Of a stretch of 64,000 bases of DNA, positions 25,040 through 40,008 are shown one piece after another (the stretch's first letter is position 1; every line of letters begins with the position of its first letter). The position numbers were made by a program, and so were the translations under genes. This stretch comes from Erysipelotrichaceae bacterium. GTDB lineage: Bacteria; Bacillota_I; Bacilli_A; Erysipelotrichales; Erysipelotrichaceae. The stretch covers positions 1-64,000 of the forward strand of contig JAAXXT010000006.1 of assembly GCA_013334325.1 (NCBI GenBank), given 5' to 3'. The notes below the pieces were generated by a model. The model was not told the DNA's origin. It did not search any database and saw only the letters and a list, made by a program, of their open reading frames with translations.

Positions 25040-25379
25040 AGTAGTGTCCTTTCATAAATGAGATAAATGACTCAGTAATAGATTCAGATCTTTAATCTCT
25101 TTCGATTATCCTTTATTTCAATATTAACATAGTTTACTTTATCTGAAATTTTAACTCTCAAATCAAAATTTAGTTTCAATTTACTAGCCTAATAGTCTGT
25201 GTATTATGAGTGTATCTTGTCTTCAATTAATTGGTTTTTTATAATGGTACACTTCTCGTGCGCTTTCCAAAATAAGCATAAGAAAACCCTTATTAATAAG
25301 AGCTTAGGGATTTTTGATAAATCGTTTAGATAAGGATCAATAGAAAACAATTATTTTCGATGAAAACGTTACACTTATG
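25040..25379. other. intergenic stretch with degenerate promoter module
   Basis: No gene. It contains the terminator of the upstream gene (25273-25308), a CAGACT box preceded on the minus strand by ACACTCAT, and a single degenerate GTGTACC. It looks like an eroded copy of the island promoter module. Confidence 0.5.
25273..25308 (-). terminator. terminator of the 25380 gene
   Basis: Minus-strand stem CCCTAAGCTCTTATT and AATAAGGG followed by TTTTCTT, about 70 bases after the stop codon. Confidence 0.65.
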
Positions 25380-25385
25380 TTACAC
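25368..25385 (-). promoter_or_regulatory. GTGTAAC direct repeat, 11-bp period
   Basis: Two heptamers GTGTAAC at 25379-25385 and 25368-25374, overlapping the stop codon of the 176-residue gene. Same spacing as at 26677, 29155 and 30198. Confidence 0.6.
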
Positions 25386-25910
25386 CTCAATTTTATTCTT
25401 TATTGATATTTCAAACGTATAGCCATCAAGTTCTAATTCGTACTTACTATCAAAGATTCGATCCTCTTCACACGTGATTTGGAGTTTATTCTTCTCCCAA
25501 TCATGGAACTCTATATCGATCATTTTAATAGGGCTTGTTAAGACTACTTTATCCTTCAAACTTGATTCAACTTTTTCTATAGATAAGAAGCAGTTTAGAA
25601 TAAAATCATCAGAAGGCGATAATGTAATCGACTCATAATGATAACGAGAAACATCATACTCTATCAAATCACCACTGCAACAATCTACCAGGTATAAATA
25701 ATCTGAAGTTAAAACAAGAATTTTACTATGTTTCCTTGAAAGTTGGACCATCTTCGGTAGACCTCTAAATGATCCACACCATTCAACAAAATCATCTTCA
25801 AACCTAACCCAAGTCCAATATGGTGAATTCCAAACACTTTGAATGTCATAGATTCTCTCTTTGTATTGACCTGAATAGGGTTGATCAATTATTGTTGCAC
25901 CTGTTATCAT
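25380..25910 (-). CDS. unknown 176-residue soluble protein
   Basis: No signal peptide or membrane helix. It is rich in aromatic and acidic residues, with tryptophans at the N-terminus (SVWNSPYWTWVRFEDD). It resembles immunity or WD-like beta-strand proteins only vaguely. GAGG lies before the ATG. It is probably co-transcribed with the upstream gene at 25972 (61-base gap). The family is not recognised. Confidence 0.6.
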   Translation of the reverse strand: MITGATIIDQPYSGQYKERIYDIQSVWNSPYWTWVRFEDDFVEWCGSFRGLPKMVQLSRKHSKILVLTSDYLYLVDCCSGDLIEYDVSRYHYESITLSPSDDFILNCFLSIEKVESSLKDKVVLTSPIKMIDIEFHDWEKNKLQITCEEDRIFDSKYELELDGYTFEISIKNKIEV

Positions 25911-25971
25911 TTTTTACCTCAAAATTAAACTTCCTGTTTACCAATTTACCACGTTTATAGATTTAAACAAA

Positions 25972-26502
25972 TTAGTTAAGTTTTATCGTCTGTCCCCATT
26001 CAATAAACAGATCTTGAGAATCTTCCGCGTTTTTTGTCTCACATGCAAACTGAATGAGCCAAAACGCATCCGAACTTTTATGGACGGTCGCAAAGTAACT
26101 GAACTGCTTTCCGTTAACTGTCTTCTCGTATTTGAAGAAAGTTAAGTTGTCTTTTTCTTCAATGGCAGAATCTATCATGTTATTTTCGATCACAAGTTCC
26201 GCATATTCCTTCACAGAAATATCCGTGGATAAGCCGATAGATTCAAAAATAGTGAATTCTTCCTTTAAAACCGTGACAATATATTTCTGCGACTCATAGT
26301 AGGCGGTTTGAGAAGCAATTTCCTTTTCGTAAAAATCAGATGTCAAAGATATTGTCATGCCTGCTTTCGTAAATTCTTTTGTCTTGGCTTTCAATATAAA
26401 GAGATTGCTCAACCCACTACTGAGTACAAAAAAAACAGAAAAGCTCAAGACTGTCGATAATACAATCAATCCAATCTGCATAGGTCTACTAAGTTTTTTC
26501 AT
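25972..26502 (-). CDS. unknown membrane-anchored protein
   Basis: A 176-residue protein with one N-terminal helix (about 10-31) and an extracellular alpha/beta domain. The end pattern, in which a stretch of F-x-K-Y-E and FAT strands is followed by W-L-I-Q-F-A-C, recalls PsbP/MOG1-like or DUF1795-type surface domains. GAGGGG lies before the ATG. It is the first gene after the promoter module at 26600-26694. The function is unknown. Confidence 0.6.
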   Translation of the reverse strand: MKKLSRPMQIGLIVLSTVLSFSVFFVLSSGLSNLFILKAKTKEFTKAGMTISLTSDFYEKEIASQTAYYESQKYIVTVLKEEFTIFESIGLSTDISVKEYAELVIENNMIDSAIEEKDNLTFFKYEKTVNGKQFSYFATVHKSSDAFWLIQFACETKNAEDSQDLFIEWGQTIKLN

Positions 26503-26599
26503 AATTCTCCCCTCAAGATGAACTTGATTTTTATATAAGACTTAACTGGTCTGCGATGATTTTTATGGAACAAATTATTTGCCACCCAGTGTTATCTTC

Positions 26600-26694
26600 A
26601 TTATCCTCTTTACCCATTCCTAAGTCTACCTGTGATGCGTGTTTTTCGTTCTCTTTTAATAGTTTTCCATAAAATCGTTACACTTCTGTTACAC
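26600..26694 (-). promoter_or_regulatory. island promoter module, copy 1
   Basis: Minus strand, in order: GTGTAAC twice with 11-base period (26677-26694), a 48-base A-rich spacer ending in CGCATCACAGG, -35 TAGACT (26623-26628), 17 bases, -10 GATAAT (26600-26605). It drives the 26502 gene. Copies 2 and 3 have the same spacing. Confidence 0.7.
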
Positions 26695-26792
26695 CTGAGA
26701 ATTGGAAATATTATTGCTTGATAGTGATACATTACTGATTACAAAAACCATATAGCTTCGCATGACTCTCTTGGTGATCAGAGTTTATCTAA

Positions 26793-27389
26793 CTAGTAGA
26801 ATTTAAGTTGGGTAATTTTTTTACCTAAGCGGGTTGACCAAAGATTTTCCAATGAATCTGTCATATAGTAAACGGATGCAAGCATTTTTTGCTTTTCTCC
26901 GTACTTATAGAAGATGAGTCCTTTCTTTGCATAAAAGAGAAGCTCTTCCATTTCCGGTCTTACAAAATCCTCAAGTTGCGAAAGTCCCCATGGAGAATGA
27001 ATCCCGCTTTTCTCATTTTCACATTCAGAATCGATTTCTTTCAGGATCTCTTCCAAAAGTGTCACTGTTTCATCGATCGCATTCAGTTTCTTGAATCTTG
27101 GACCCACCTTTCGAATATGCCGTTCTATCTTTTTCATATCTGAGATTGAAATCTGTTTACCGCAGCTTGGGCATTTAAACTCAGTCCATATAAACTTAAC
27201 ATCTCCAAACATGTATCCTTCTCCTCCTGCGGAACTAAAATCGTATTCTTTTGCCTCTGGAGATTTGGAATTTACGATCTTGGAAACCTTAGTTTTGGAT
27301 AATAAAGAATGACAATCAGGGCAGTAATGTTTCTTAATGTTGACATAAAATGGACTTGTCCATGTTCTTTTGATGTGTTGGAATTTCAT
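26793..27389 (-). CDS. zinc-ribbon protein of unknown function
   Basis: A 198-residue soluble protein with two CxxC pairs (CPDC about 18-21, CPSC about 75-78), a likely zinc ribbon, followed by a helical C-terminal half. GGAG lies before the ATG. Repeat copy R1 is immediately upstream. No family recognised. It resembles small DNA- or RNA-binding accessory proteins only in the ribbon. Confidence 0.6.
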   Translation of the reverse strand: MKFQHIKRTWTSPFYVNIKKHYCPDCHSLLSKTKVSKIVNSKSPEAKEYDFSSAGGEGYMFGDVKFIWTEFKCPSCGKQISISDMKKIERHIRKVGPRFKKLNAIDETVTLLEEILKEIDSECENEKSGIHSPWGLSQLEDFVRPEMEELLFYAKKGLIFYKYGEKQKMLASVYYMTDSLENLWSTRLGKKITQLKFY

Positions 27390-27430
27390 AAGATCTCCAT
27401 TGTTTTCACTTTTTCAATTTATCCTAATAA

Positions 27431-27520
27431 CCACTGCAGTCTGACTCTCTTTACTCACCACGGTGAGTTTGCAAAGACCGTGGTCTGAGTGGACTTGGGA
27501 TCTCTTATAAACCCACTGCA
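27431..27520 (-). repeat. 3' island repeat, short copy R1
   Basis: A 90-base relative of R2 bounded by CCACTGCA at both ends. The core is ACCACGG and CCGTGGT around a 14-base loop. Compared with R2 the inner part is missing, exactly between two ACCGTGG copies, as expected from a deletion by short direct repeats. It follows the stop of the 27532 gene. Confidence 0.65.
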
Positions 27521-27531
27521 ACTAATTAAGC

Positions 27532-28308
27532 TTAGTGAAATGCCCAGCTGTTTGCCAATTTAAATTCTAGTAAGACCTGCCAAGGATCTTCAATCTGATT
27601 TTTACTAATTTCTATAATTCCCATATTTGGCATAATCATTTTATCTTTATCTAACATAATCAGAAAAGCACTTCCATATTCTCCATCATCTGAGTATTCT
27701 TGGCCAATGAAGAGCAATCGTCCTTCTTTATCTTGAGATAATAGCACTAAATCAGAGGAGTTCAAGTCACCAGGCAATATCTCAATCATTTCATTCAATT
27801 CACGAGTAGATAGTGGTCGGTTCTTATTGCGACGCAATTCCGTTGTAAACATATTACTTGGGTTCAGTGGCTCATTCCAATCATTTCGTTCTTTAAGATC
27901 ATTTATCATGGATTCGTTGAAATTAGCATTTATGATCTGATCACTCAATTCGTCTTCTTTTGTTGACCAAGCATAAATCTTTGAAATCATATTGACTCCG
28001 TCGTAATAGGATACTGTTTTTTCATCAGATGTTTGAACGATACCGACAGCTAATGTGTAATCGTCGTAGAGATGAGAAACACCAATGAAGCCATATAGGA
28101 TTCGTCCAAATGAATCAACTTCAATAATGATTGTCTTATCATGATAACCACCTTCCGCCCCTAGAATTGATTCTCTCGAGGCAACGAGCAGTGTAATATC
28201 ATTATCATAATATTTAGATCCATCAATTTCTAAGCAAGACGAAAGTAAAGCAAGCGCCAATCCTATAACTAGAATTTCTTCTATTTTGAGAAAAGCTTTT
28301 GTCTTCAC
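27532..28308 (-). CDS. unknown lipoprotein
   Basis: A 258-residue protein starting at GTG with AGGAGG upstream. An N-terminal hydrophobic stretch ends in lipobox LSSC (Cys about 25). The mature part is acidic and mixed alpha/beta. It has no clear -10/-35 of the shared island type. Repeat R1 follows it and R2 precedes it. Confidence 0.65.
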   Translation of the reverse strand: MKTKAFLKIEEILVIGLALALLSSCLEIDGSKYYDNDITLLVASRESILGAEGGYHDKTIIIEVDSFGRILYGFIGVSHLYDDYTLAVGIVQTSDEKTVSYYDGVNMISKIYAWSTKEDELSDQIINANFNESMINDLKERNDWNEPLNPSNMFTTELRRNKNRPLSTRELNEMIEILPGDLNSSDLVLLSQDKEGRLLFIGQEYSDDGEYGSAFLIMLDKDKMIMPNMGIIEISKNQIEDPWQVLLEFKLANSWAFH

Positions 28309-28386
28309 TTAATACCTCCTTGCCTATTGAGTCTACAATTGATTTATTTTATACTTTATCGAACCAAATAGGGTTCTCTACTAAAT

Positions 28387-28557
28387 CCACTGCGTTCCAA
28401 ATTCTTAGAACTCACCACGGTCTTCGTATTCACTCCATGGGAACATTCTCCACAATCTAGTACGAACGCTTAGGCACACGCATTCGTGTCCCACGGTGAG
28501 GTTGCCAAGATCGTAGTCTGAGTGAGTTGGTGATCTCTCATAAGCTTACTGCAGTCT
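28387..28557 (-). repeat. 3' island repeat, full copy R2, 5S-rRNA-like
   Basis: A 171-base repeat starting at the stop codon of the 28556 gene and bounded by CCACTGC and ACTGCA. On the minus strand a 112-base core is closed by a long stem (CTACGATCTT with AAGACCGTGG). It contains a GTGCCTAAGC block and the block GTTCCCATGGAGTGAATACG, in the order and spacing of 5S rRNA. A strongly diverged 5S-derived element is my inference. R3 shares most of it. Confidence 0.6.
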
Positions 28558-29041
28558 AGTTATATCCCCAGAAGGAGCGACCGATCTTTTTTATCGTGTC
28601 TACATCTATTGATTCATCAAATAGGAAATCTCGAACTTCCAAAGTCCCATTAACTCTGTGCCAAATCTCAAGCATATACCTTTCGAAACTACCCTCATCA
28701 TTTTGTATTTTAACAGTATGTATTTTTACACGATTATTCAGACTTAAGCCATTCATATATTCAATAGTGAATATCTGATTGTTGCTGATATCAGTGTAAT
28801 AATGTTCTCCATTCACAAACTTATATTCAAGTTCAACCATATATACTTGATTTAAATTCTCATCCTGTTTTCCATTATCTAGGATTATCCCTCTATCAGT
28901 TTTATTGATTATCCATTCGTCAGGTATACAAAATCGTCCAAATCCATTTATATTGAGTTGCTTTAAACCATTATCATAAAACACAATAAAACATAGAACT
29001 ATTGCTAAGATGATAGATAAAATGATAACTATTCTTTTCAT
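28556..29041 (-). CDS. unknown membrane-anchored protein
   Basis: A 161-residue protein. The start at 29041 is preferred over one 12 bases upstream because GGGAGAG then serves as ribosome site. One N-terminal helix (about 3-21) and a beta-rich extracellular domain. The size and layout resemble the 25972 gene, but the sequence differs. It is driven by promoter module copy 2 and followed by repeat R2. Confidence 0.6.
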   Translation of the reverse strand: MKRIVIILSIILAIVLCFIVFYDNGLKQLNINGFGRFCIPDEWIINKTDRGIILDNGKQDENLNQVYMVELEYKFVNGEHYYTDISNNQIFTIEYMNGLSLNNRVKIHTVKIQNDEGSFERYMLEIWHRVNGTLEVRDFLFDESIDVDTIKKIGRSFWGYN

Positions 29042-29076
29042 TGTCTCTCCCATCTTGAACCAAACTTACTGAACTC

Positions 29077-29172
29077 ATTATCCCTTTTATACATCCAATA
29101 GTCTACCTACTATGCGTATTTTTCTTTCTCTTTTATATCGTTTTCTATAAATCCGTTACACTTTTGTTACAT
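29077..29172 (-). promoter_or_regulatory. island promoter module, copy 2
   Basis: Minus strand: ATGTAAC and GTGTAAC with 11-base period (29155-29172), a 49-base A-rich spacer with CGCATAGTAGG, -35 TAGACT (29100-29105), 17 bases, -10 GATAAT (29077-29082). Confidence 0.7.
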
Positions 29173-29259
29173 TTCAGAGATTGAACTTTTGAACCTATGT
29201 TATTCTACTCAGAGGGCTCTATTAAGACCACTACAACCATATTTTTATCATAATTAAGT

Positions 29260-29637
29260 CTACGATTTTTTGCACATCACTTGTATATAAAGGATCGATA
29301 CAATCTGTATTACTCCAGTTGCGTTAAGCCAGAATTCTAACTTATTCTGTGTAAAATATATAAAAGTCATAAGAACAAGCATCGCAATATAAGCCAGATT
29401 CATAATTAGTAATACACAGTTAACTAAGAAGGGTAACCTTTCCCAATATTCTAAATATAGGGTTCGAGATAGAAAAGAACTTCCACTTTGCCTTTTTTTC
29501 TGTTTATTTAGGCTCTCTTTATGAAACCCAAGAAACCTATCTATAGGTTCTTCAATAAACATCGCATAAGTAATGATATAAATCAACAGAAAGACTAAAA
29601 TTATAAGTAGATAGCCTAATATTGTAAAAACATACAT
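29260..29637 (-). CDS. unknown three-helix membrane protein
   Basis: A 125-residue protein with one N-terminal helix (about 7-28), a basic loop with KKRQSGSS, and two C-terminal helices (about 70-92 and 102-118). GGAGG lies nine bases before the ATG. Repeat R3 is upstream. Family not recognised. Confidence 0.6.
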   Translation of the reverse strand: MYVFTILGYLLIILVFLLIYIITYAMFIEEPIDRFLGFHKESLNKQKKRQSGSSFLSRTLYLEYWERLPFLVNCVLLIMNLAYIAMLVLMTFIYFTQNKLEFWLNATGVIQIVSILYIQVMCKKS

Positions 29638-29692
29638 ATCAATGGACCTCCATTGTTTTGCGAAATTTAAGTATCATATAGTTCGTTATCAT

Positions 29693-29800
29693 AACGCACT
29701 ACGGTCTTCGTATTCGCTCCAGGTGGAGCATTCCCCACATTCTAGTATCAATGCTTAGGCACACCCAATCGTGTTCCACGGTGAGTTTGTTAAGACCATT
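29693..29800 (-). repeat. 3' island repeat, copy R3
   Basis: It shares with R2 the minus-strand blocks CTCACCGTGG, GTGTGCCTAAGC, GATACTAG, a GTGGGG/CTCCAC hairpin and GCGAATACGAAGACCGT. The outer arms are less conserved than in R2. It lies between the 29887 gene stop and the 29637 gene start. Confidence 0.6.
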
Positions 29801-29886
29801 TCAATATTAAAAGTTATCGAGTGCACTATTAATTCTCTTCTGTTTTGTCAGTTCGTTTGATGAATATCCTATATCTTGATTGGAAA

Positions 29887-30093
29887 CTATATTGTTTCCT
29901 TATTTCCTTTATAGGAATAAACAAGCCCAACGATAAACACTACTAAAAAGAACACAAACATGAACTCAAAACTAATATGTAGTGTAGACCTTGCACTACC
30001 ATAAGATCCCCCGATAGCAGATGCAATCAAGATACCGACTATACCAACCGTTCCGCTTAACACAAGTCCGATGCCTAATAATAGTTTTTTCAT
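29887..30093 (-). CDS. unknown small two-helix membrane protein
   Basis: A 68-residue protein from ATG 30093 (AGGTGG upstream) with two membrane helices separated by a GGSYGSARST loop. Driven by promoter module copy 3. It is the last gene of the island before the prophage end. Confidence 0.6.
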   Translation of the reverse strand: MKKLLLGIGLVLSGTVGIVGILIASAIGGSYGSARSTLHISFEFMFVFFLVVFIVGLVYSYKGNKETI

Positions 30094-30119
30094 TTTGCCC
30101 ACCTAAGTATGTTATTTTC

Positions 30120-30215
30120 ATTATGCCTTTTCATAGCCCGAAAGTCTACCCACTATGAGTGTTATTTTGTCTTCTTTTTAATCGTTTTTTAGAAAATGTT
30201 ACACTTTTGTTACAC
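30120..30215 (-). promoter_or_regulatory. island promoter module, copy 3
   Basis: Minus strand: GTGTAAC twice with 11-base period (30198-30215), a 49-base A-rich spacer ending ACACTCATAGTGGG, -35 TAGACT (30143-30148), 17 bases, -10 CATAAT (30120-30125). Confidence 0.7.
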
Positions 30216-30232
30216 CTGGCACTTTTGACCTG

Positions 30233-30257
30233 CAAAAAACCCTGATAGAATCAGGGC
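30233..30257 (-). terminator. former tRNA-Thr terminator
   Basis: Minus-strand stem CCCTGAT and ATCAGGG with loop TCT and TTTTTT. It lies 12 bases beyond the left attachment repeat and is probably the original terminator of the tRNA gene, displaced by the insertion. Confidence 0.75.
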
Positions 30258-30268
30258 CTAGAGTGAAA

Positions 30269-30285
30269 TGGTGCCGACAACAGGA
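30269..30285. other. attL: left attachment site, tRNA 3' end copy
   Basis: TGGTGCCGACAACAGGA, identical over 17 bases to the 3' end of the tRNA-Thr gene at 39932-39948. It marks the distal end of the inserted element. Confidence 0.85.
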
Positions 30286-30401
30286 TATGACACCGGCATA
30301 TTTTCGAGGAATAGTAGTGTTCAATAAACCTTATAAATAGGGCATTATCAACTGAAGTATTGAATAATAATCGTTTCGAAATAATTGGTTATTCAAAATT
30401 A

Positions 30402-30421
30402 TGTTAGCAAAACGTTAGCAA
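30402..30421. repeat. integrase arm-type repeats, left
   Basis: Two GTTAGCAA direct repeats with 11-base period, about 120 bases inside the left end. The same pair with the same period occurs at 39862-39879 inside the right end. Confidence 0.7.
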
Positions 30422-30448
30422 ACATTCGAGATCTCTATGATGATAGAA

Positions 30449-30670
30449 CTAGTCTCTTTTACCACTGTTGTTGGAATTTATTGCCACAATCAATTGATCA
30501 ATTTTGATCCATATTACAGCTATCAACGTAAATATACCGATAACAATCGAGAATAAATAACTGTTAATGAATGCCACATCAAACACATAGGTGGAAACGA
30601 ATCCCGGTAGAATATAAGCGATGGTAAATGCAGAAAGAACTATTAATATATATTTAATTGTGTTTTTCAT
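30449..30670 (-). CDS. unknown two-helix membrane protein (element cargo)
   Basis: A 73-residue protein with two helices (about 7-27 and 35-57). Its ATG at 30670 follows the upstream stop codon by one base, so translation is coupled to the secreted protein gene. Both lie inside the attachment repeats and are probably passenger genes of the element. Confidence 0.6.
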   Translation of the reverse strand: MKNTIKYILIVLSAFTIAYILPGFVSTYVFDVAFINSYLFSIVIGIFTLIAVIWIKIDQLIVAINSNNSGKRD

Positions 30671-30671
30671 T

Positions 30672-31796
30672 TTAGTGCCCATCTGTATGGTATGAAATCA
30701 GATTTACTCCATCGTACTCACTATTTTCTATACCAGGTGATAGTGAAACTCCTACCCCAGGATATTGTGAGCCAAGATTCCAGCTAAATGAGTAACCCAA
30801 GTTAATGACAGGATGCGCATGTTGATATACTGTAAATACATTGAATTCTTGGCTTTCATTGTAAGTTGACACCCTTGCCTTTGCACTAATATACATACTT
30901 AATGAAGTTACGGTTTTTCTTATGTTGGAAACCCAGTTGAATGTATCAATTGGTAAGTCCCAAGTATAATAGACACCAGAGTTTGGACTAAAGTATTGAT
31001 CTTGCTTATATTTTATGTATGGCCCCATAAGTTTAGTGGTTATAGACCCATTGTTATTAGTTTTCATAGTATACTGCATTCTTGAAGACATGTCCTCATC
31101 TCCTAATTGCCAGGCAGTCTTTCCATTGTTGGTTGCAATTGAGAACGCGTCTTTCAATCTTGCGTTCGGGATTATTAACCAAGTATAAGTCCCGGATAAA
31201 GTGTAATACCCTATCCCTCCCTGTATATTAGGGTCAAGATAATATGCAGTCGTTAGGATTTTCATATAACCATCCTTGGACCAATAATAATGGTATGACG
31301 TATTACTTGGAGATGTCGCGCTAGTGGTCATAACGGGTTCGCTAGAAAGCATTGCGTTGCCATTGAGTTCTTGATTCTCATACTGCTTAACTTGTAGGAT
31401 GCTTTCGAAACACTGTTTTTTGGATAAATAATCAATGCTTCCATCTTTTGATACTTTTACATACTGTTCAATTACCTTTATGTAAACAGACTCAGTCAAT
31501 ATTCTCGCCAATTCTTCGTAACCAATGAGTTGAATCTGTTCTGCTGAATATCCAAGTTCAGAAAATACATAATCAATAATCTCGTCATTTTCAACTTGAC
31601 CTACTCCATTTCTATCTAGATATGATTTAACACTTTTCAAATTTGCTTTTCTTAACAATGAATCGCCCGAAACTTCAGTAGAAATCGCAAGCAACGATTT
31701 GATAGATAAGGATAAATCAGTCGATGCTGATACTGAACTTATCTCTGAAAATAGTAAAACACAAAATATAACCAAAGTTAAAATAGTTCTTTTCAT
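30672..31796 (-). CDS. unknown secreted protein (element cargo)
   Basis: A 374-residue protein from ATG 31796, chosen because AAGGAAATG fits and the signal peptide then starts correctly (residues 1-25, ending SVSAS). The mature part is helical for about 110 residues, then beta-rich with many Tyr, Thr and Ser residues. The position at the end of the prophage, next to the attachment site and after the lysis genes, is typical of lysogenic-conversion genes. No family recognised. Confidence 0.6.
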   Translation of the reverse strand: MKRTILTLVIFCVLLFSEISSVSASTDLSLSIKSLLAISTEVSGDSLLRKANLKSVKSYLDRNGVGQVENDEIIDYVFSELGYSAEQIQLIGYEELARILTESVYIKVIEQYVKVSKDGSIDYLSKKQCFESILQVKQYENQELNGNAMLSSEPVMTTSATSPSNTSYHYYWSKDGYMKILTTAYYLDPNIQGGIGYYTLSGTYTWLIIPNARLKDAFSIATNNGKTAWQLGDEDMSSRMQYTMKTNNNGSITTKLMGPYIKYKQDQYFSPNSGVYYTWDLPIDTFNWVSNIRKTVTSLSMYISAKARVSTYNESQEFNVFTVYQHAHPVINLGYSFSWNLGSQYPGVGVSLSPGIENSEYDGVNLISYHTDGH

Positions 31797-32102
31797 TTCA
31801 TTTCCTTTCATAATGATCATAACTACCATAGAACCAATAACACAATTGTCGAAACTCGCCCCACCCCCTCATTTTAATTATTGTATTTAGGCTCGATAAT
31901 CTGATAATAGACTTAACGTTACTCAAAAGTCAAGGTAATCAAGACTATTCTTTATAATTCTTCTTGTGCTTACACACTATCTATTGCATCGAGTAACAAA
32001 CGCCTAAAAATATCACAAGTTTTCGAATTTTACATCTAATTCGTTCTGAATGCTAACATTCAAAAAGCCCCTAAGGATCCAGTGTTCCTTAGGGGCTTTT
32101 TG
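31797..32102. other. intergenic, terminator and weak promoter only
   Basis: About 300 bases without a gene. A weak minus-strand promoter (TCGACA, 16 bases, TATGGT) lies near 31825-31850, and the lysis-operon terminator is at 32059-32100. Confidence 0.4.
32059..32100 (-). terminator. terminator of the lysis cassette
   Basis: Very strong inverted repeat AAAAAGCCCCTAAGGA and TCCTTAGGGGCTTTTT with an eight-base loop, just after the XhlA-like gene. Confidence 0.95.
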
Positions 32103-32378
32103 TTAATTGGGTTCTTCTTCTTGATCTGATAAGTGCCCTGATTTCGCACAGTTCAGTTCCATTGATTGGAGCTTCTTTTCAGCCCTAGTCAATCTCTGAT
32201 CAAGCTTCGACACCAGCTTCTCGGTATTGTTGAGGTTGGTTGATAGTTCCTTGATCAGCACTTTAAGTTCATTGATTGCTTCGGTCAGATTTGAGAATGG
32301 CTTTGCGATTAGAGCGAACAGTGTTCCAATCGATATAAGCGCAATGGCAACGACCCCAATACCTTCAGCTGGCGACAT
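32103..32378 (-). CDS. XhlA-like holin-associated protein
   Basis: A 91-residue protein with one N-terminal helix (about 6-24) followed by a long coiled coil (ELKVLIKELSTNLNNTEK through RAEKKL). This matches the layout of hemolysin XhlA-type proteins in phage lysis cassettes. AAAGGAG lies before the ATG and overlaps the end of the endolysin gene. Confidence 0.65.
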   Translation of the reverse strand: MSPAEGIGVVAIALISIGTLFALIAKPFSNLTEAINELKVLIKELSTNLNNTEKLVSKLDQRLTRAEKKLQSMELNCAKSGHLSDQEEEPN

Positions 32379-32380
32379 AC

Positions 32381-33159
32381 CTATTTCTCCTTTGGGACAA
32401 AGCTGAGGTTGATCAGCATCCCGTCCTGCTCCAGCGCTACTGTGAGCGGTTTGTAGATGATCTTATCAATCGTAATCGTAGTAGGTTCAATGAACTTGAC
32501 CGTATTCCATTTCGAATTAATCCCACAGAACACATGTGATCCATCATCAAGCAAGATCTCTGCCCATTCATATCCACCTAAAAGTTGAGACTTACCAATG
32601 TATGGGTAAGATCTCTTCTCGAGATACTTGATTCTTGAACCGTTGGGCTTATCGCGGTAGAAAAGTTCAGGCACAATAACTGTAAGCATTGGCAATGGTG
32701 GTCTATTCATTCTGATCTCCTCATAAGGCGTGATTGCCTTGGTTCCTAATAGATAGGGCGTCGGATCAACGAATACTCCTTTGATCCTAATTCCTAGATG
32801 CATGTGAGCCCCTGTGACTGTTCCAGTATGTCCTGCTGTAGCGATCGTAGGGCCACGTTCAACGATTTGATTAACTTTGACACAGATACTACCAGGCGCT
32901 AAATGTTTGTACAATGGCTCTGTATAGTCTTCATGTTGAAAACGATGTAGTTACCTTCGACACTGTTATAACCCACATCAGTAACTTTGCCTCTTTCAAT
33001 AGCCATTGCCTTAACAACTGGCACCATATCGATACCGGTATGCCAAGTCACGTGAGTTGTACCAACCATGAAGTCAACCTTGACAAACGGACAAATTACG
33101 TAAACACTTTTAAGCCCGATTAGAACTCTCTTAATAAAGTTCGTATAAGCTTGGCTCAT
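32381..33159 (-). pseudogene. M23 endolysin, broken by a frameshift
   Basis: The two halves of one peptidase lie in different frames. The N-terminal part (33159 to about 32940) has the first zinc motif WHTGIDM. The C-terminal part has GAHMHLGIR and an SH3-like tail. Near 32935-32943 one missing base shifts the frame; restoring it joins NYIVFN to EDYTEPLYKHL. An intact protein would be about 258 residues and cut cell-wall cross-bridges. The start overlaps the holin stop (ATGA). If the shift is real, the prophage cannot lyse normally; an assembly error is the alternative. Confidence 0.8.
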
Positions 33160-33584
33160 CAGCCCAATACTTCACTTTCGTCCACTTCATCAACAACTGG
33201 TTCAGCTCCGAATGGTGTGTATGTATCCGACTTGTTAAACATCTCATTTAGCTTGTCATCGATGGTCTGCATAAAGGCAGGTGTTGGGATGCCAAATAAG
33301 AAGATCATGTTCTGCAGAGTACTGTTGCCATAATAGGCAATAACCAAAGTCATTAGCAATTTAAATGTTGGTTCAGCAAATGGTAATCCGAAGATCTGTG
33401 CAATTCTTAAGTAGTAGAACATTAAGCCCCCAATTAAAGCCGTAAATGCCAACAGAACGATATTCTTTAATCCACTTAAGGCAAGTGACCACTTGAACTC
33501 ATTTCGTTTCAGCGCCCCCGCAATACCGTTAGCATAATCTAATAGAACTATACACAATGCGATGATCACGAAATGCGCAATCAT
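33159..33584 (-). CDS. phage holin (toxin secretion/phage lysis type)
   Basis: A 141-residue protein with about four hydrophobic segments (1-20, 31-60, 72-88, 89-105). The DYANGIAGALKRNEFKWSLALSGLKN stretch is typical of phage_holin_4 proteins, followed by an acidic tail. It would form the pore that releases the endolysin. Directly followed by the endolysin gene. Confidence 0.85.
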   Translation of the reverse strand: MIAHFVIIALCIVLLDYANGIAGALKRNEFKWSLALSGLKNIVLLAFTALIGGLMFYYLRIAQIFGLPFAEPTFKLLMTLVIAYYGNSTLQNMIFLFGIPTPAFMQTIDDKLNEMFNKSDTYTPFGAEPVVDEVDESEVLG

Positions 33585-33628
33585 AAATTCAAGAAATGCG
33601 TCATTTAGGTTTACCCTCTTTCTGTGTA

Positions 33629-33653
33629 AAATAAAAAGAGCCTAAGCTCTTTA
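33629..33653 (-). terminator. terminator after the tail gene
   Basis: Minus-strand stem AAAGAGC and GCTCTTT with loop TTAG, then TATTTT. It lies six bases after the stop that the unshifted tail frame would use (33659-33661), but inside the frame read after the shift. Confidence 0.75.
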
Positions 33654-33658
33654 GATTC

Positions 33659-34787
33659 TTATGCTGTTTTCTTCCACATATAAACCACGATGTAAGATGC
33701 AAATTATTGTGGGATCCACCACCTCCTGAATTAGCGATACTAACCGTATGTTGATGTCCTCCCTTAGAATCTGTTAAATAAACATTATTCCCGCTTACCC
33801 AAGATATTGGTCTGTTAAAACTTGATCCACTCGCGACACTTGGACTTGGTACTGCCCCAATTAAATAATGAGTATGCGCACCTTGCGTGTCTTCCGAAGC
33901 GGTATGATTATGGGCTGGTATTTCGGTCGTCGCAAGAGTGTGCGTTTTAGCCCCACTTGTTTCCTCAACTGAATTAAACTCTGTCTGAGAAGCATCTAAA
34001 CCCACTAAAGTCTTACCAGCGCCAAATGTCACCCAAGTGTCAAATCCAAATAACGTCGCTGGATTTGTTGAAACCACAGACATATAAATTGCACACAAAG
34101 AATTCCCCAATTTTACCCCTCTAGAATTGATGTCTCCATCTGCATTTATTGATATACCATCGGCAACATCAGCAACATCGATAGTTCCCGACCCATCATA
34201 GGTCTTACCAAACGACGCATAACGTTTACCCAAGATCATACTCACATCGCCACTTGGGAGAAATGTCATTCCTTCAGCATAGTCATCTGTAACTTCTAAA
34301 GTAGAGGCATCGTTATCTAGATCATAGAAGGCATCGAACACCCTTAAACGGATGTCATAGACCTCAGCAGCTAAGAATCCAGCTTTGCTGAAGTCGTTAA
34401 CTCGCCGAAGGTTAGACCTCCTGGAGCAATAGCAGAATTCTTGCTAAAGGAACCAGTACTCTTGATTCGGTAATCGATTTTATACTTGATCCAATTCTTC
34501 TCAGTAGTACCATCCAAGGCCTTTACTGCTATAGCCGTTCCTTTGATAACACATCGGAGATAGGTTCCAAATACCGGATCAAACACTCCACTTACAGTAG
34601 ATCTGTAGACTTCAAATTTATCGACTTTTGGATAAGTATAGGCGCGTACGGTGATCGGTGCTGAGGTAAACACGGCTGTTCTTCCTCGGCTGTCTATGAT
34701 TGTAATAGTTGCTGTTAAATTTCCCGATGTATTGAGAATATCAGTAACAACTGGACTGGTAGACTGAGTCTTATCAGTCCCGGCAAA
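33659..34787 (-). pseudogene. phage tail fibre / collar protein remnant, two frameshifts
   Basis: A C-terminal remnant of a minor structural protein. The first part (34787-34371) reads through Ig-like strands. Near 34400 the frame shifts, and the original continues as NDFSKAGFLAAEVYDIRLRV into the next open part (34341 onward). That part ends in a collar domain with TTEIPAHNHT and GGGGSHNNL. Near 33700 a second missing base diverts the usual end SYIVVYMWKKTA into another frame. Upstream an in-frame TAG at 34788-34790 cuts it off. No capsid, portal or terminase genes remain. Confidence 0.75.
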
Positions 34788-34823
34788 CTAAACACGTAAG
34801 GTCACTCCTTTCGCATAAGTTAT

Positions 34824-34934
34824 CTTAATTAATTTTCAATATATTATTTAGTTTTCTTATGTCAAAACCAGAATTATAGTTTTCTTAATTAAATCTTATG
34901 TTTTGCTTGAATACAATTAAGAAATGTTTATAAT
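34824..34934. promoter_or_regulatory. repressor operators and promoter
   Basis: Three copies of a CTTAATTAA-type site: 34824-34832, 34884-34892, and an inverted copy TTCTTAATT at 34915-34923. The third sits inside the spacer of the promoter TTGAAT (34907-34912), 16 bases, TATAAT (34929-34934) that reads into the repressor gene. This suggests autoregulation. Confidence 0.65.
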
Positions 34935-34952
34935 TAGCCTTGAGGTAACATC

Positions 34953-35597
34953 GTGAAAAAATTTGCTGAACGACTTCAAGTAGCTCTCTCTATAAGAAAA
35001 ATAAAAGCTGCAGAGCTCGCAACTCGAACTGGATTAAGTCAATCATTGATTTCACAATACTTAAATGGGAAATTTGATGCTAAAAATGACAAAATCTGTG
35101 CCATTGCGAGCGCACTGAATGTTAGCGAATCTTGGTTAGCCGGGTTCACTAATGAACTTGATCCTTGGGAAGACGACAAAAGCATGGTTCCTTTAAAAGT
35201 GATGACCAATAAGATCACTGCGTATGGTCGGATCCCAGTCGGCATCCCCTTTGAAGCAATCCAGGATCTCTTGGAAGAAGTTGAGATACCAAGTTGGCTC
35301 GCAGAGAAAAAAGGCCTATTCGGCCTTAAGGTAGTTGGAGACAGTATGAACAAAGTTCTTCCTGACGGATCCATCGCGGTTCTTCAGAAGACAGATACCT
35401 TGAATAATGGGGAGATCGGTGCGATCCTGGTGAACGGGTTCGATGCCACACTGAAGAAGTTCTATCAGCTGACGGACAGCATCGTCTTAGAACCGCTGAG
35501 CTATAATCCAGATAATAAGACTCTGATCTATACTGACGAAACTGAGATCCGACCAATAGGTAAACTAGTTTGGTTCTGTGCAGCACAAGGGTGGTAA
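34953..35597 (+). CDS. phage CI/LexA-type repressor with S24 peptidase
   Basis: A 214-residue repressor starting at GTG with GAGGTAAC upstream. HTH_3 domain at residues 5-62 (AAELATRTGLSQSLISQYL). S24 domain with an AYGRIPVG linker where self-cleavage is expected, Ser131 in VVGDSM and Lys168. It would keep the prophage silent and be inactivated by RecA after DNA damage. The cleavage pair reads Ala-Tyr-Gly rather than Ala-Gly. Operators lie directly upstream. Confidence 0.9.
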   Translation: MKKFAERLQVALSIRKIKAAELATRTGLSQSLISQYLNGKFDAKNDKICAIASALNVSESWLAGFTNELDPWEDDKSMVPLKVMTNKITAYGRIPVGIPFEAIQDLLEEVEIPSWLAEKKGLFGLKVVGDSMNKVLPDGSIAVLQKTDTLNNGEIGAILVNGFDATLKKFYQLTDSIVLEPLSYNPDNKTLIYTDETEIRPIGKLVWFCAAQGW

Positions 35598-35616
35598 GAA
35601 AGAGGGGGATATTGGT

Positions 35617-36579
35617 ATGAAGAAATTCTTTAAATGGTATGACAGAAATTTTGGATGGTTATTTAACTGGTTCATCAAACATCCTGTAGTATTCATCTTT
35701 CTAGTGACTCTCGTTACAATTAATCTGATCACCAGGGGTGAATATGTTTGGAGCACGATCTACATTGTTATGTTGTTCTTTATTGTGTCGTTATTCATTT
35801 TTATGCAGATCGATGCGTTAAAGAAAAACCACTTACTGCGCAGAGTTGCGTTGTACTTGATGGTGTTCATTGGGACCAGTTATGGTCTCGTCAGGTTTCT
35901 CAAAATGATTCCAGAAGATTATCTAGTTGTTGGAGTTGATGATTGGCTCGGATTCGCCGGTGGCCTCTTCGGAGGATTCATAGCGATCTATGGTATTTGG
36001 ATCACTCTTGAAGAAACCAGGAAGCAGAATGCTGAGACATTAGCCTTACAATCCATTCCTCTTATTACAATCGATGTTCCGGAGTTTTTCTATGAAACAG
36101 ACGGGGTAGTATACACAACACTTGATGAAATCGATCCTTTTACTGAGAGCGGGTTTTTCCATGTGAGAGTTCCCTTCTCTCTGAATAATAAGTCAGCCCA
36201 TATTGCAAGAAACTTCAGATTCATAAAAGCTGAATTTGTATCCCGAAGTATTTTGAGTGGCATTGAAGATCTTGGCACTGGTAAAGAAGCCGCATTCAAG
36301 AATATCCTCAATGAGGTAAATGAGCAGCTTGAGAAGATTTCGGCTCTTCCTGGCGGATATAGCGACACGCTATTCATTAATGTGCAACTTGAGTTGCTAA
36401 AACATGATCGGATCACTTTCGAATTTATTCTCGAATATTCAGACTATTTAGGTAAACTCAGTCATCAAATTGAAAACAAAACAAATGTTGTAGTAACCAG
36501 AAAGAGAACCAAAGAGGAAGAACGTTGGAAAAACACCTTGAGCAATTCGGTAACTACAAAGAATAAGTTTTTAAAATAG
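35617..36579 (+). CDS. unknown membrane protein in prophage
   Basis: A 320-residue protein from ATG 35617 (GAGGGGG upstream; a start inside the repressor gene is unlikely). It has four N-terminal helices (about 12-32, 40-62, 72-90, 105-125) and a 190-residue cytoplasmic domain beginning EETRKQNAETLALQS. The layout of membrane anchor plus soluble domain suits superinfection exclusion or abortive-infection proteins, but no family is recognised. Confidence 0.6.
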   Translation: MKKFFKWYDRNFGWLFNWFIKHPVVFIFLVTLVTINLITRGEYVWSTIYIVMLFFIVSLFIFMQIDALKKNHLLRRVALYLMVFIGTSYGLVRFLKMIPEDYLVVGVDDWLGFAGGLFGGFIAIYGIWITLEETRKQNAETLALQSIPLITIDVPEFFYETDGVVYTTLDEIDPFTESGFFHVRVPFSLNNKSAHIARNFRFIKAEFVSRSILSGIEDLGTGKEAAFKNILNEVNEQLEKISALPGGYSDTLFINVQLELLKHDRITFEFILEYSDYLGKLSHQIENKTNVVVTRKRTKEEERWKNTLSNSVTTKNKFLK

Positions 36580-36640
36580 CGATTAGGATTTCCAAATCAA
36601 ACATAAATAATCCTATGCGATTATTGAAAGGGGCTAAATA

Positions 36641-37477
36641 ATGTTTTTCTTTGATTTTACAGATCGGGGTAGTGAATTTCCTTTGTTCGAAGATATTCGT
36701 AATGTAACAGAAGATGGTAAAGAATTTTGGTTTGCACGAGATTTGATGGGGGTGCTTGAATACTCGAAATGGGACAATTTTGTCAACGTTATCGAAAAGT
36801 CGAAAGAGGCTTGCGAGAACAGTGGTTTTGACTCAACTGATCATTTTGCCGACGTCAGCAAAACGATACAGATGCCCAAAGGAGCTGAGAAAGAAATCCC
36901 GGATATCATTCTAACTAGATATGCTTGCTATTTGATAGTTCAGAATGGAGACTCAAGAAAGAAAGTCATTGCTCTTGGACAGACTTACTTTGCTGTTCAA
37001 ACTCGGAAACAAGAGATTGAAGATATAAGTAAACTAAGTGAAGATCAGCGACGTCTGCAACTAAGAGTTAGCATCAAGGATTTCAATAAGAAACTATATA
37101 AAGCTGCTACTGACTCAGGCGTAGTTCACTATGGAAAGTTCACTAATTTTGGATACAAAGGGTTATACGGTGAGGAAACTGAAAAAGATATCCATCGAAG
37201 AAAAAATCTTAAAGAGAACGAAAAGATCCTTGATCACATGGGCGCTACTGAATTGGCTGCCAACTTCTTTAGGATAACTCAGACTGAAGAAAAGTTGAAG
37301 AATGACAACATCACATCAGAGGAAGAGGCAAATAAAACACATTACCGAATAGGTGTTAAGATCCGCAAAACGATGGTTGAAATTAGTGGAACACTTCCAG
37401 AAAATCTGCCAACTCCTGAGTCAAGTATAAAAGAGATTGAAAAGAAGAGTAAATCAGATACGAAACATTTAAAGTGA
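36641..37477 (+). CDS. dinD: DinD-like DNA-damage-inducible protein (BRO-N type)
   Basis: A 278-residue protein matching the pattern of DinD. The N-terminal BRO-like domain includes WFARDLMGVLEYSKWDNF (about 29-46) and ILTRYACYLIVQNGD. The ending is NKTHYRIGVKIRKTMVEI with a lysine-rich tail. DinD proteins are SOS-induced and modulate RecA filaments. An AAGGGG site precedes the ATG. In a prophage controlled by a LexA-like repressor this fits SOS-linked regulation. Confidence 0.8.
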   Translation: MFFFDFTDRGSEFPLFEDIRNVTEDGKEFWFARDLMGVLEYSKWDNFVNVIEKSKEACENSGFDSTDHFADVSKTIQMPKGAEKEIPDIILTRYACYLIVQNGDSRKKVIALGQTYFAVQTRKQEIEDISKLSEDQRRLQLRVSIKDFNKKLYKAATDSGVVHYGKFTNFGYKGLYGEETEKDIHRRKNLKENEKILDHMGATELAANFFRITQTEEKLKNDNITSEEEANKTHYRIGVKIRKTMVEISGTLPENLPTPESSIKEIEKKSKSDTKHLK

Positions 37478-37511
37478 TCAAAATACTGATTAATATGTGT
37501 CGGAGGAACTA

Positions 37512-38003
37512 ATGGACATGTCTAAAACACAAAAAAATAATGAAGTGAAATTCATTGAAAGATATTCTCCTGAAGACTATATGAATGCACGGCTTGACCA
37601 GCAAATTAAATGGTATGACCAAAAATCAATTGGATTTAAGAACTTACATTTCTGGTTAGTTTTTGGTTCTATCATTTTATCGTCCCTAGGTTCGTTCATC
37701 GCGATCTTGGGTTTCTTGCTTCTCGAATTCACTCTTCTTATTCAGATTGTTTCATCTGTTCTAGGTATCATCGTAGCTCTCTGTCTTGCTCTGGATAAAT
37801 TTAATACCTATCAAGAATTACATTTACAATATCGCTCAACATGTGAGAAATTGAACCAGGAAAAACTCCTTTATCTGACGAGGGCAGGCGATTATACATC
37901 TAGTGATGATAACTCGAATTTCAGACTTCTTGTTCAGCGATGTGAAAGTGTTATGGCTACTGAAACAGGAAACTGGGCTCAACTAAAAGAAAAGAAGACT
38001 TAA
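37512..38003 (+). CDS. SLATT/DUF4231 two-helix membrane protein
   Basis: A 163-residue protein from ATG 37512 (GGAGG five bases upstream). Residues 27-40 (ARLDQQIKWYDQKS), two helices (about 47-70 and 75-96) and the C-terminal YRSTCEKLNQEKLLYL with a final NWAQ follow the DUF4231 family. SLATT-type 2-TM proteins are predicted pore-forming effectors of nucleotide-signal immune systems. It sits two genes before a ThsB-like TIR protein. An effector role in membrane disruption is inferred from the family. Confidence 0.8.
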   Translation: MDMSKTQKNNEVKFIERYSPEDYMNARLDQQIKWYDQKSIGFKNLHFWLVFGSIILSSLGSFIAILGFLLLEFTLLIQIVSSVLGIIVALCLALDKFNTYQELHLQYRSTCEKLNQEKLLYLTRAGDYTSSDDNSNFRLLVQRCESVMATETGNWAQLKEKKT

Positions 38004-38197
38004 TCCTTCTTCCCTAATACTACATAAGTTTTGTCGAATATATCTGGTTTACACGGATACTTCTCACCAGCCACACCAGTAATGATCCAATCGCCCTTAT
38101 GAGCAATCATATCCCCTTCAAGGGTATGAATGATCTGATCGCGATCAGATATCTCTGCATCTACGATTATTGCCTTCTTTTGGACTCTATATTTCAT
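38000..38197 (-). CDS. small phage protein of unknown function
   Basis: A 65-residue protein with the sequence pattern of a common small phage protein: an MKYR start, HTLEGDMIAHKGDWIITG, then KYPCKPDIFDKTY. It is shorter than usual, lacking the middle part. It is antisense to the rest of the right arm and overlaps the SLATT gene end by four bases, so it probably marks an insertion or rearrangement between the SLATT and TIR genes. Confidence 0.65.
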   Translation of the reverse strand: MKYRVQKKAIIVDAEISDRDQIIHTLEGDMIAHKGDWIITGVAGEKYPCKPDIFDKTYVVLGKKD

Positions 38198-38241
38198 TGC
38201 TCACCATCAAACGAATTATATCAAAGAAAGGGGGTAAAAGC

Positions 38242-38634
38242 ATGATTACAGTTCGATTGTTCATCAGTCATTCATGGTCATATAAAGAAGATTACGAAAA
38301 GATTATTAAGAATTTAAGCGACTACATTAACATCATTGACTATTCGATCTCTTCAGACGAACCAAAGGATGCTGATTCGGTTAGAGAGCTTAAGAGAATG
38401 ATTACAAATAATCTTAATCAATGCCAATGTTTTGTCGTTTTGGCAGCAATGTATGCATATCATAGCAAATGGATTGAATATGAAGTTAATGAAGCCATAA
38501 GACTTGGAAAACCGATAGTAGCTGTTAAACCATGGGGCCAAGAACGAGTCCCACAGTTTATTCAGGATAACGCTGACAAGATTGTTGGTTGGAATTACGA
38601 AACAATGGCTAACGCCATAAAAGATTTGATTTAA
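38242..38634 (+). CDS. ThsB-like TIR-domain protein (DUF1863)
   Basis: A 130-residue single-domain protein from ATG 38242 (GGGGG upstream). It starts with FISHSWSYKEDY (7-18) and has VVLAAMYAYHSKWIEYEVNEA (65-85). The highly typical VKPWGQERVPQ (95-105) and IVGWN follow. This is the MTH538 TIR-like family of Thoeris ThsB. ThsB proteins detect phage and make a cyclic ADP-ribose-type signal from NAD. No ThsA gene is nearby; the only candidate effector is the SLATT protein. Confidence 0.85.
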   Translation: MITVRLFISHSWSYKEDYEKIIKNLSDYINIIDYSISSDEPKDADSVRELKRMITNNLNQCQCFVVLAAMYAYHSKWIEYEVNEAIRLGKPIVAVKPWGQERVPQFIQDNADKIVGWNYETMANAIKDLI

Positions 38635-38652
38635 ATTATCAACAATGGTGAG

Positions 38653-38714
38653 AAAAACGTCCTGGCTGGCACCAGGACGCAAGTACAACTTATCCTATCA
38701 CGGGTTTTGTTGTA
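38653..38714 (-). ncRNA. candidate small RNA beside the integrase gene
   Basis: On the minus strand an extended -10 TGGTATAAT (TATAAT at 38720-38725) is followed by hairpin GTACAAC / GTTGTAC (38709-38715 with 38683-38689) and a strong terminator, CGTCCTGG and CCAGGACG with TTTTT (38653-38679). The predicted RNA is about 60 nt with two stems and no reading frame. No other minus-strand gene needs this terminator. Its promoter overlaps the region in front of the integrase ribosome site. Confidence 0.5.
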
Positions 38715-38748
38715 CCTCCATTATACCAAAACAAAGGAGGTTGTGTTT

Positions 38749-39840
38749 ATGATCGGAAGACGGAATGGCGTTTTATTTTTCTCAGTCCGATACAAGGACT
38801 CGCTGGGAAACACTAAAGCCAAGTTCATGCAGAATAAGGAATGGAAGACCAAGCGCGAAGCTAAAGAAGCGATGAATCTGTTCTTGCTCTCAGTCAAAAC
38901 GAATTACGACAAGATCACTGTTGATCAGCTCTTTATGCTATATCGCGAACATACCAAAGAGAAGATCAAGCAACACAGCATCGATACCCAGGACAACTAT
39001 TACTTCAATCACATCAAACCGTACCTGGGTGATCTGATCATACGCAACATCAGCCCCAGAGATATTCTCAAGTGGCAGAATTACCTTGTGGGCAAGAAGT
39101 TCAGCAATCGATACTCCTCATCGATCCAGCACTTCTTCAGAACGCTGATCAACTTCGGTTTGAAGTACGAGTACATCAATCGTAATCCGTTCAGGGGTGA
39201 CTTCATAGTCAACCACGAAGAGAAGAAGGAAGAGATGGAGATCTGGACGATCGATGATTTCAATCGGTTCATCCCCTACGCTCCTACCTTGACATATGAA
39301 TCATTCTTCACTGTGCTTTATTGGTCTGGTCTGCGCAAAGGCGAAGCTGCGGCTCTTCGTGTAGAAGACATCGATCTCAGGAATTCGCAGATCAACGTCT
39401 CGAAGACCTACGACTTCACGAACAAGTTTTCTACACTGCATAAGACCAGAAACTCGATCCGGACTGTTGCCATTACCGACAATGTTAAAAGCCTCCTGGA
39501 AGAGCTCTGCAAGGCGCACAAAGCATCTTATGAGTACTCAGATGATCGTTATGTCTTCGGATATGACGCGCCTCTTGCGGCAACCACGATCGAACGAGTC
39601 AAACACATAATGTGCCTGGTATCCGGAGTAAAAGAGATCCGGGTCCACGATCTTCGGCACTCTCATGTTTCGCTCTTGGTCTCACTCGGTTTCAGCCCTA
39701 TCGAAATCGCTAAGCGATTGGGTCATACTGTCGACATGGTAAACAATGTTTGCTCTCATTTATTCAAAGATTCCCAGCAAAGAATGGTCGATCGTGTGAA
39801 CGACAAAGCGAACAGTTCAGCCCCGATTATCAAGGCATAA
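38749..39840 (+). CDS. int: tyrosine recombinase integrase, nucleophile replaced
   Basis: A 363-residue phage integrase from ATG 38749 (AAGGAGG). It has an N-terminal AP2-like arm-binding domain (1-50), a core-binding domain (53-155) and a catalytic domain. Catalytic residues visible are R196 (SGLRKGEA), K232, H300-x-x-R303 and H326 in RLGH. The nucleophile position in the VYSHLF motif reads VCSHLF: Cys335, codon TGC 39751-39753, one base from TAC. The gene is GC-richer than its host surroundings. It lies 90 bases from the tRNA attachment site. As written, it should not catalyse strand exchange. Confidence 0.85.
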   Translation: MIGRRNGVLFFSVRYKDSLGNTKAKFMQNKEWKTKREAKEAMNLFLLSVKTNYDKITVDQLFMLYREHTKEKIKQHSIDTQDNYYFNHIKPYLGDLIIRNISPRDILKWQNYLVGKKFSNRYSSSIQHFFRTLINFGLKYEYINRNPFRGDFIVNHEEKKEEMEIWTIDDFNRFIPYAPTLTYESFFTVLYWSGLRKGEAAALRVEDIDLRNSQINVSKTYDFTNKFSTLHKTRNSIRTVAITDNVKSLLEELCKAHKASYEYSDDRYVFGYDAPLAATTIERVKHIMCLVSGVKEIRVHDLRHSHVSLLVSLGFSPIEIAKRLGHTVDMVNNVCSHLFKDSQQRMVDRVNDKANSSAPIIKA

Positions 39841-39861
39841 AAATACATAATTCGAAAAAAC

Positions 39862-39879
39862 GTTAGCAATTTGTTAGCA
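39862..39879. repeat. integrase arm-type repeats, right
   Basis: GTTAGCA at 39862-39868 and 39873-39879, 11-base period, about 55 bases inside the right end. They match the pair at 30402-30421. Confidence 0.7.
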
Positions 39880-39898
39880 TTTCAAAATCGACATACAA

Positions 39899-39926: not shown

Positions 39927-39931
39927 TTTAC

Positions 39932-39948
39932 TGGTGCCGACAACAGGA
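39932..39948. other. attR: right attachment site inside tRNA-Thr
   Basis: TGGTGCCGACAACAGGA, the 3' end of the tRNA gene including CCA, repeated at 30269-30285. The insertion keeps the tRNA intact. Confidence 0.85.
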
Positions 39949-40008
39949 CTTGAACCCGCAACCTACTGATTACGATTCAGTTGCTCTACCAGTTGAGCTA
40001 TGTCGGCA
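39932..40008 (-). tRNA. tRNA-Thr (CGT)
   Basis: A 77-nt cloverleaf with encoded CCA. Acceptor TGCCGAC/GTCGGCA, anticodon stem ACTGA/TCAGT, loop ATCGTAA with anticodon CGT. It is the integration target of the element. A hairpin TACGGAG/CTCCGTA lies just upstream at 40012-40031. Confidence 0.95.

Follow-up and report, generated by a model that had tools for sequence, protein, structure and literature searches.

Gene-end repeats in tRNA-Thr-anchored arrays of Erysipelotrichaceae: candidate attC-like joining sites of gene cassettes

A window of 64,000 nucleotides from an Erysipelotrichaceae genome contains a repeat that we read as the 3' tag of gene cassettes (gene plus repeat) collected in tRNA-Thr-anchored arrays, where it likely serves as an attC-like joining site; we put the probability of this reading, which is drawn from sequence, at about one half. 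The repeat forms a family, obeys a strand rule, is linked to integrase attachment (att) modules whose geometry is conserved, and coincides in one case with a break of homology. By analogy, it probably acts like the attC site of integrons, and we infer both the action of a recombinase and its identity. In the proposed mechanism, the arrays would grow on the outside by tandem insertion of units that carry tRNA-Thr 3' ends and integrase arm sites at their borders, performed by a tyrosine integrase supplied in trans; inside the units, single genes would be swapped at junctions that coincide with the repeat. The repeat itself would be a folded DNA joining site, and its conserved 3' end ...GAATACGAAGACCGTGGTGnGTT may mark the start of the next cassette.

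A repeat family behind genes of the same strand

All genes from 25380 to 31829 of the window lie on the minus strand, as do the two full-length repeats R2 and R3 (107-113 bp; Table 1), which are 83% alike and are copies of one element. The original prediction had described these repeats as resembling diverged 5S rRNA, with each gene followed on its 3' side by one repeat. The repeats are real as far as R2 and R3 are concerned: both hold the CCTAAGC block and TGGAGnGAATACG on the minus strand, the strand of the neighbouring genes, and both stand on the 3' side of a same-strand gene. The predicted closing stem is also present, with 11 bp that are 91.9% paired over 16 copies, as against 28-55% when slid. 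R1, however, is only a 30-nt remnant; the body of the repeat is gone between short direct repeats (A/G)CCGTGG, which fits a deletion derivative formed between these short repeats inside the element. One repeat per gene was too strong a statement, because the six window genes at 25380-29637 share two full copies and this one remnant.

A genome search for further copies of R2 had been proposed as a check, and copies were indeed found elsewhere. Using a profile search we identified five full copies in the window's genome (G000), two in the window and three in a second array, G000:C11, along with one truncated copy in each array. These copies are far above chance (E down to 1e-39 for those in C11) and are confined to the two tRNA-Thr arrays, which represent ~1% of the genome (1.95 Mb, 51 contigs).

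Table 1. Features of the array and of the adjoining prophage (positions in the window)
Feature	Position	Strand	Basis
Arm direct repeat, far end of array, decayed junction	25368..25385	minus	motif scan
Array gene, 176 aa	25380..25910	minus	Pfam: no match
Array gene, 176 aa	25972..26502	minus	Pfam: no match
Arm direct repeat, third module, core lost	26677..26694	minus	motif scan
Array gene, 198 aa, zinc-ribbon-like, after R1	26793..27389	minus	weak Pfam matches only
R1, remnant holding nt 1-30 of the repeat	27458..27487	minus	nhmmer 21.3 bits; comparison with R2
Short motif CTGCAGTGGGTTTATAAGAGAnCCC, 5' side of R1	27497..27521	minus	motif scan
Array gene, 258 aa, lipoprotein-like, after R2, then R1	27532..28308	minus	Pfam: no match
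R2, full-length repeat (gene-end tag)	28408..28520	minus	nhmmer profile 110.9 bits; aligned with 13 other copies
Array gene, 165 aa, then R2	28556..29053	minus	ORF list; Pfam: no match
Arm direct repeat, second module, tRNA core lost	29155..29172	minus	motif scan
Array gene, 125 aa, after R3	29260..29637	minus	ORF list; Pfam: no match
R3, full-length repeat, diverged at 5' end	29693..29799	minus	nhmmer profile 113.1 bits
Leader motif GGTAGACT..ATAATG, between arm and first gene	30119..30150	minus	motif scan
Arm-type direct repeat GTGTAACAAAAGTGTAAC, 53 bp from tRNA-Thr core	30198..30215	minus	motif scan
tRNA-Thr 3'-end core TCCTGTTGTCGGCACCA, equal to prophage attR	30269..30285	minus	identical to the 3' end of tRNA-Thr 39932-40007
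Prophage arm repeat, attR side, about 117 bp from core	30403..30419	minus	att-site reading
Prophage tyrosine integrase	38707..39840	plus	Pfam Phage_integrase 5.3e-17; att sites and arms
Prophage arm repeat TGCTAAC-N4-TGCTAAC, 52 bp from core	39862..39879	minus	att-site reading
tRNA-Thr (CGT), anchor of the array	39932..40007	minus	ARAGORN; same tRNA directly ahead of the array in sister genome G025 (L063)

The suspected likeness to 5S rRNA in order and length did not hold up. The length and the branched fold are superficially alike, but cmscan gave no match of the repeat to the 5S model (RF00001), whether at the gathering threshold or with E allowed up to 10. Across the whole window, gathering scores were reached by tRNAs and a T-box only, and a scan of 26500-30300 with all matches to E=10 listed contained neither 5S nor any other Rfam match for the repeat, so that other Rfam families were also ruled out as its identity. 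The single true 5S gene of the genome (G000:C11:8687-8800, 76 bits) is no closer to the repeats than expected from shuffled sequence, since in global alignment shuffles equalled or beat R2 in 57 of 300 trials and R3 in 75 of 300. We therefore reject an origin as a diverged, mobile copy of 5S rRNA. The T-box is a leader at 59133-59358 of the window, on the minus strand.

In all, 272 genomes of the family, G000 among them, were searched with the profile under strict filters, giving 22 copies, full-length or partial, in four genomes of two genera, a count that may miss weak relatives because of the filters. The carriers are G000, two genomes of the same genus (G025, the MAG Erysipelotrichaceae bacterium X3_MetaBAT.3, and G264, the lake MAG Loclat_bin-03787) and one of another genus (G269, with two diverged copies). 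Carriers of shown origin are all draft MAGs in which repeats tend to coincide with contig breaks, and one contig, C112, is common to G264 and a further genome, G095. Four copies of G025 are on contigs with no recognised att site, mostly near contig ends; for the G025 repeats outside recognised tRNA arrays, no orthologous empty site was found for the two of three contigs searched. The plasmids, phages and IMG/VR viral contigs searched yielded no copies, and the sole IMG/VR pattern match (L079) was rejected as coding sequence.

The position of the repeat follows a simple rule. In 22 of 22 copies from the four genomes, the gene closest to the repeat on its 5' side shares its strand, usually at a distance of 30-230 bp; for the closest gene on the 3' side this holds in 16 of 20. 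The 18 copies found in tRNA- or att-linked arrays all have the orientation of the tRNA/att module. Because the copies are related, these counts do not represent independent trials. Neighbours were called mechanically by a script, which at L116 passed over the actual neighbour, a gene of 438 aa that likewise lies on the repeat's strand. The rule links the repeat to the preceding gene, in the way that an attC belongs to its cassette gene, and speaks against random MITE insertion.

A non-autonomous transposable element (a MITE or an IS200/IS605-type hairpin) with a preference for these arrays would account for an 11-bp terminal inverted repeat, a similar length in all copies, a high copy number and the lack of an open reading frame. 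IS200/IS605-type MITEs and palindromic intergenic repeats are likewise short and non-coding, with inverted-repeat ends; the repeat differs from them in its strict orientation and gene-end position and, in the window's genome, its confinement to arrays. The uniform orientation (18/18 in arrays, 22/22 behind a same-strand gene) and the lack of G000 copies beyond the two arrays make this origin quite unlikely, as do the facts that no target-site duplication is seen by eye in the printed flanks and that no transposase relative was identified.

Attachment modules at tRNA-Thr and the resident prophage

The cassette-like look of the region (module, gene, repeat) had been pointed out before and is well supported. 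From its sequence, which contains GTGTAACAnAAGTGTAAC, we read the module as a tandem integrase attachment site made of a tRNA-Thr 3' end and GTGTAAC direct-repeat arms, because it matches both the geometry of the resident prophage and the junction beside a broken integrase in G025:C32. A complete junction consists of an arm repeat, 115-116 bp, the tRNA-Thr 3' end, a 53-bp stretch that includes a terminator hairpin, and a second arm repeat, beyond which come 47 bp and the leader GGTAGACT...ATAATG; this leader motif also occurs at 29076-29107 and 26599-26630 of the window. The arm/core spacings of 53 and 115-116 bp are kept in four junctions from three genomes (L031, L062, L063, L074). Units are bordered by tRNA-Thr 3' ends in G000, G025 and G264, and by a tRNA-like end in G269.

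The prophage (30269-40007) is inserted in the 3' end of tRNA-Thr(CGT), with attL at 39932-39948 and attR at 30269-30285, and separates this tRNA from the older gene array. It has the same geometry as the module (52 and about 117 bp) but different arm letters (TGCTAAC-N4-TGCTAAC). We gave up the idea that the GTGTAAC module is only a promoter, as the prophage has this geometry with arms of its own. The broken tyrosine integrase of G025:C32 (L071 5487-6606) is 40% identical to the prophage enzyme. Behind it lies an arm of the GTGTAAC type, GTGTGACATGAGTGTAAC, and 53 bp farther a sequence that reads like the 3' end of another tRNA; this integrase is likely a relative of the array-building enzyme. 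Among the integrases found in G025, G072, G264 and G269, it is the only one with GTGTAAC arms beside it. We also looked for an autonomous virus that shares the att site: none of 25 pattern matches had a related integrase within 1.6 kb past the arms.

The att module, searched for as the pattern core-N46-58-arms, is present in just the four carriers of the repeat among the 272 genomes, one of them from another genus, and the pattern gave zero matches in reversed controls. By our own arithmetic, which ignores common descent, the chance of such a four-of-four coincidence is about 1 in 2e8.

Both arrays of G000 are found at tRNA-Thr genes: that of C11 directly behind tRNA-Thr(GGT), and that of the window behind tRNA-Thr(CGT), with the prophage between. 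The tRNA-Thr(CGT) locus of G025 lacks a prophage and contains another set of genes, and a third set is present in G264; the tRNA-Thr array loci are hypervariable sites. Most of the window array proteins tested had no Pfam match. A broken homologue of the 198-aa gene (26793..27389) stands after a repeat in G025 (L065). In the C11 array, a decayed tRNA-Thr core (L031:2047-2061) lies beyond an LTA-synthase-like gene, which suggests that this gene is inside the accretion region. The array G269:C217 (L114) carries two near-identical small membrane-protein frames (2551-2750 and 6233-6430), one of them interrupted, before its two repeats, and also encodes a metallo-beta-lactamase-fold protein and a UvrD-like helicase.

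Read as tandem accretion of integrase-less units, the arrays belong to the known kind of CIMEs (cis-mobilizable elements), which, with the tandem accretion of tRNA- or ssrA-integrated islands, are reviewed in PMC5704250, the ssrA islands of Dehalococcoides being an example (PMC3146451). CIMEs too consist of tandem units bordered by tRNA 3'-end repeats, with no integrase of their own and with strain-specific cargo, and the tyrosine-integrase att arms of our arrays, of the kind seen in the resident prophage, are CIME-like as well. The arrays differ in that their units go down to a few small genes, lie at two tRNA-Thr genes, and carry an additional gene-end repeat, which the passages on CIMEs in these papers do not describe.

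Homology breaks and conservation of the repeat

Evidence on cassette junctions places most weight on one pair of blocks, containing a 342-aa lipoprotein gene that is 97.7% identical between G000 (L031:8779-9807) and G264 (L074:5439-6467). Ahead of this gene, identity is about 92% in the non-coding leader and 84% in the repeats, and the sequences farther upstream are unrelated; the other end of the block is the tRNA-Thr core. Any two repeats of the genus are 73-90% identical with a median of 84.6%, and because 84% is this median level, the repeats of the two blocks need not be the same copy. A change-point test gave a likelihood ratio of 37.8, strong for a change. Homology breaks at the repeat, probably at its 3' end, the exact base not being fixed because the change-point limits in this one clean pair are columns 86-198, from the repeat's last 30 nt to the start of the coding sequence. 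The switch point contains a 24-nt identical stretch. In another case, a gene and its repeat (89% over 1 kb) are found at tRNA-Thr(GGT) in G000 and at tRNA-Thr(CGT) in G025.

Homologous recombination between repeats would leave the same homology trace, and is the strongest rival to a joining site. Repeats with no recombinase of their own would offer shared homology to ordinary recombination and be spread by copying together with the genes, for which their 73-90% likeness and the identical stretch at the switch point would suffice, the integrase att modules already accounting for the outer units. Such a process leaves unexplained why every one of the 22 copies follows a same-strand gene and why the 3' terminus is the better conserved one, and we consider it rather unlikely.

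Conservation within the repeat is uneven. The 3' arm and the GTT end are conserved best, with GTT present in all 14 aligned copies of the genus and in one of the two copies of the other genus. Most changes fall in the 5' arm, where some break pairs (G to A) and others keep them. In the other genus both bases of one stem pair differ (U-A to C-G), and covariation of the closing stem was not beyond shuffled controls. Folded as RNA, single copies reached z-scores of -2.1 to -3.5 against dinucleotide shuffles; bottom-strand DNA folding varied from copy to copy (z -0.35 to -4.4), some copies forming a closing stem that has a 2-nt bulge. On comparison of the copies, constraint on the 3'-end sequence is better supported than constraint on the fold.

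These RNA folding energies are what a structured RNA would show, such as a leader, processing or regulatory element of the array transcripts. There is no Rfam match, however, stem covariation stays within that of shuffles, and the pair-breaking changes of the 5' arm occur beside pair-keeping ones. Moreover, one repeat of the other genus is preceded by a terminator-like hairpin with a T run, so that the repeat need not share the upstream transcript. We regard such an RNA role as very unlikely.

Relation to integron cassettes

The attC sites of integrons have an R' box (GTTRRRY), an R'' box (RYYYAAC) and a folded bottom strand with one-sided extrahelical bases (PMC3053210), and attC clusters lacking an integrase are termed CALIN (PMC8618304). 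In a similar way, the ~110-bp repeat described here stands behind a same-strand gene, in arrays of mostly unknown genes with no integrase nearby, and has imperfect terminal pairing and a GTT near its 3' end that is invariant in the genus. The attC features that it shares are thus position, strand, length range and GTT. Unlike in attC, no R'' box is present at its 5' end, where the sequences read (GACT)CAGA with no AAC, and the four bases after GTT are MTRA-like (GTTMTRA-like), off the R' consensus. Nor do the carrier genomes have an integron integrase, which a CALIN by its definition lacks but which one would expect to exist somewhere: a TIGR02249 search of the four carriers and one non-carrier of the genus gave best scores of about 80 bits in the carriers and 83 in the non-carrier, with a cut-off of 265. 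Unlike in integrons, the anchor is tRNA-Thr att sites and not attI. We have not filed the repeat as an integron or CALIN element, because the R'' box and the integron integrase are absent and the R' box departs from consensus beyond GTT. The literature that we found tying integrons or attC to Erysipelotrichaceae concerned wastewater integrons only.

A more specific proposal would be an integron-independent cassette system, in which ~112-bp gene-end repeats join single-gene cassettes in Erysipelotrichaceae tRNA-Thr arrays through a tyrosine recombinase of a phage, a mobile element or the host Xer type; we consider this possible but doubtful. To our knowledge, integrons are the only well-known means by which single genes are stored as tagged, shuffled cassettes. 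If the cassette reading is true, tRNA-anchored accretion arrays contain a second layer of cassettes that has a tag of its own and lacks an integron integrase, and cassette storage could arise from ordinary phage-type integration. The arrays mark where strain-specific genes of unknown function gather in these uncultured bacteria.

Two short motifs accompany the repeats. A copy related to CTGCAGTGGGTTTATAAGAGAnCCC is located ahead of R2 (about 28532-28554), and this motif was also seen at L062:7735-7759 and L074:2520-2544; it lies near array gene ends and sometimes adjoins the repeat. The second, of ~50 nt (GGTCGACTTTTG..GAGTCACAATATTAAAGTTG..), precedes many repeats, as in the 5' flanks in L031, L062, L063, L064 and L115, and also occurs alone beside the broken integrase of G025:C32 (L071:6818-6859).
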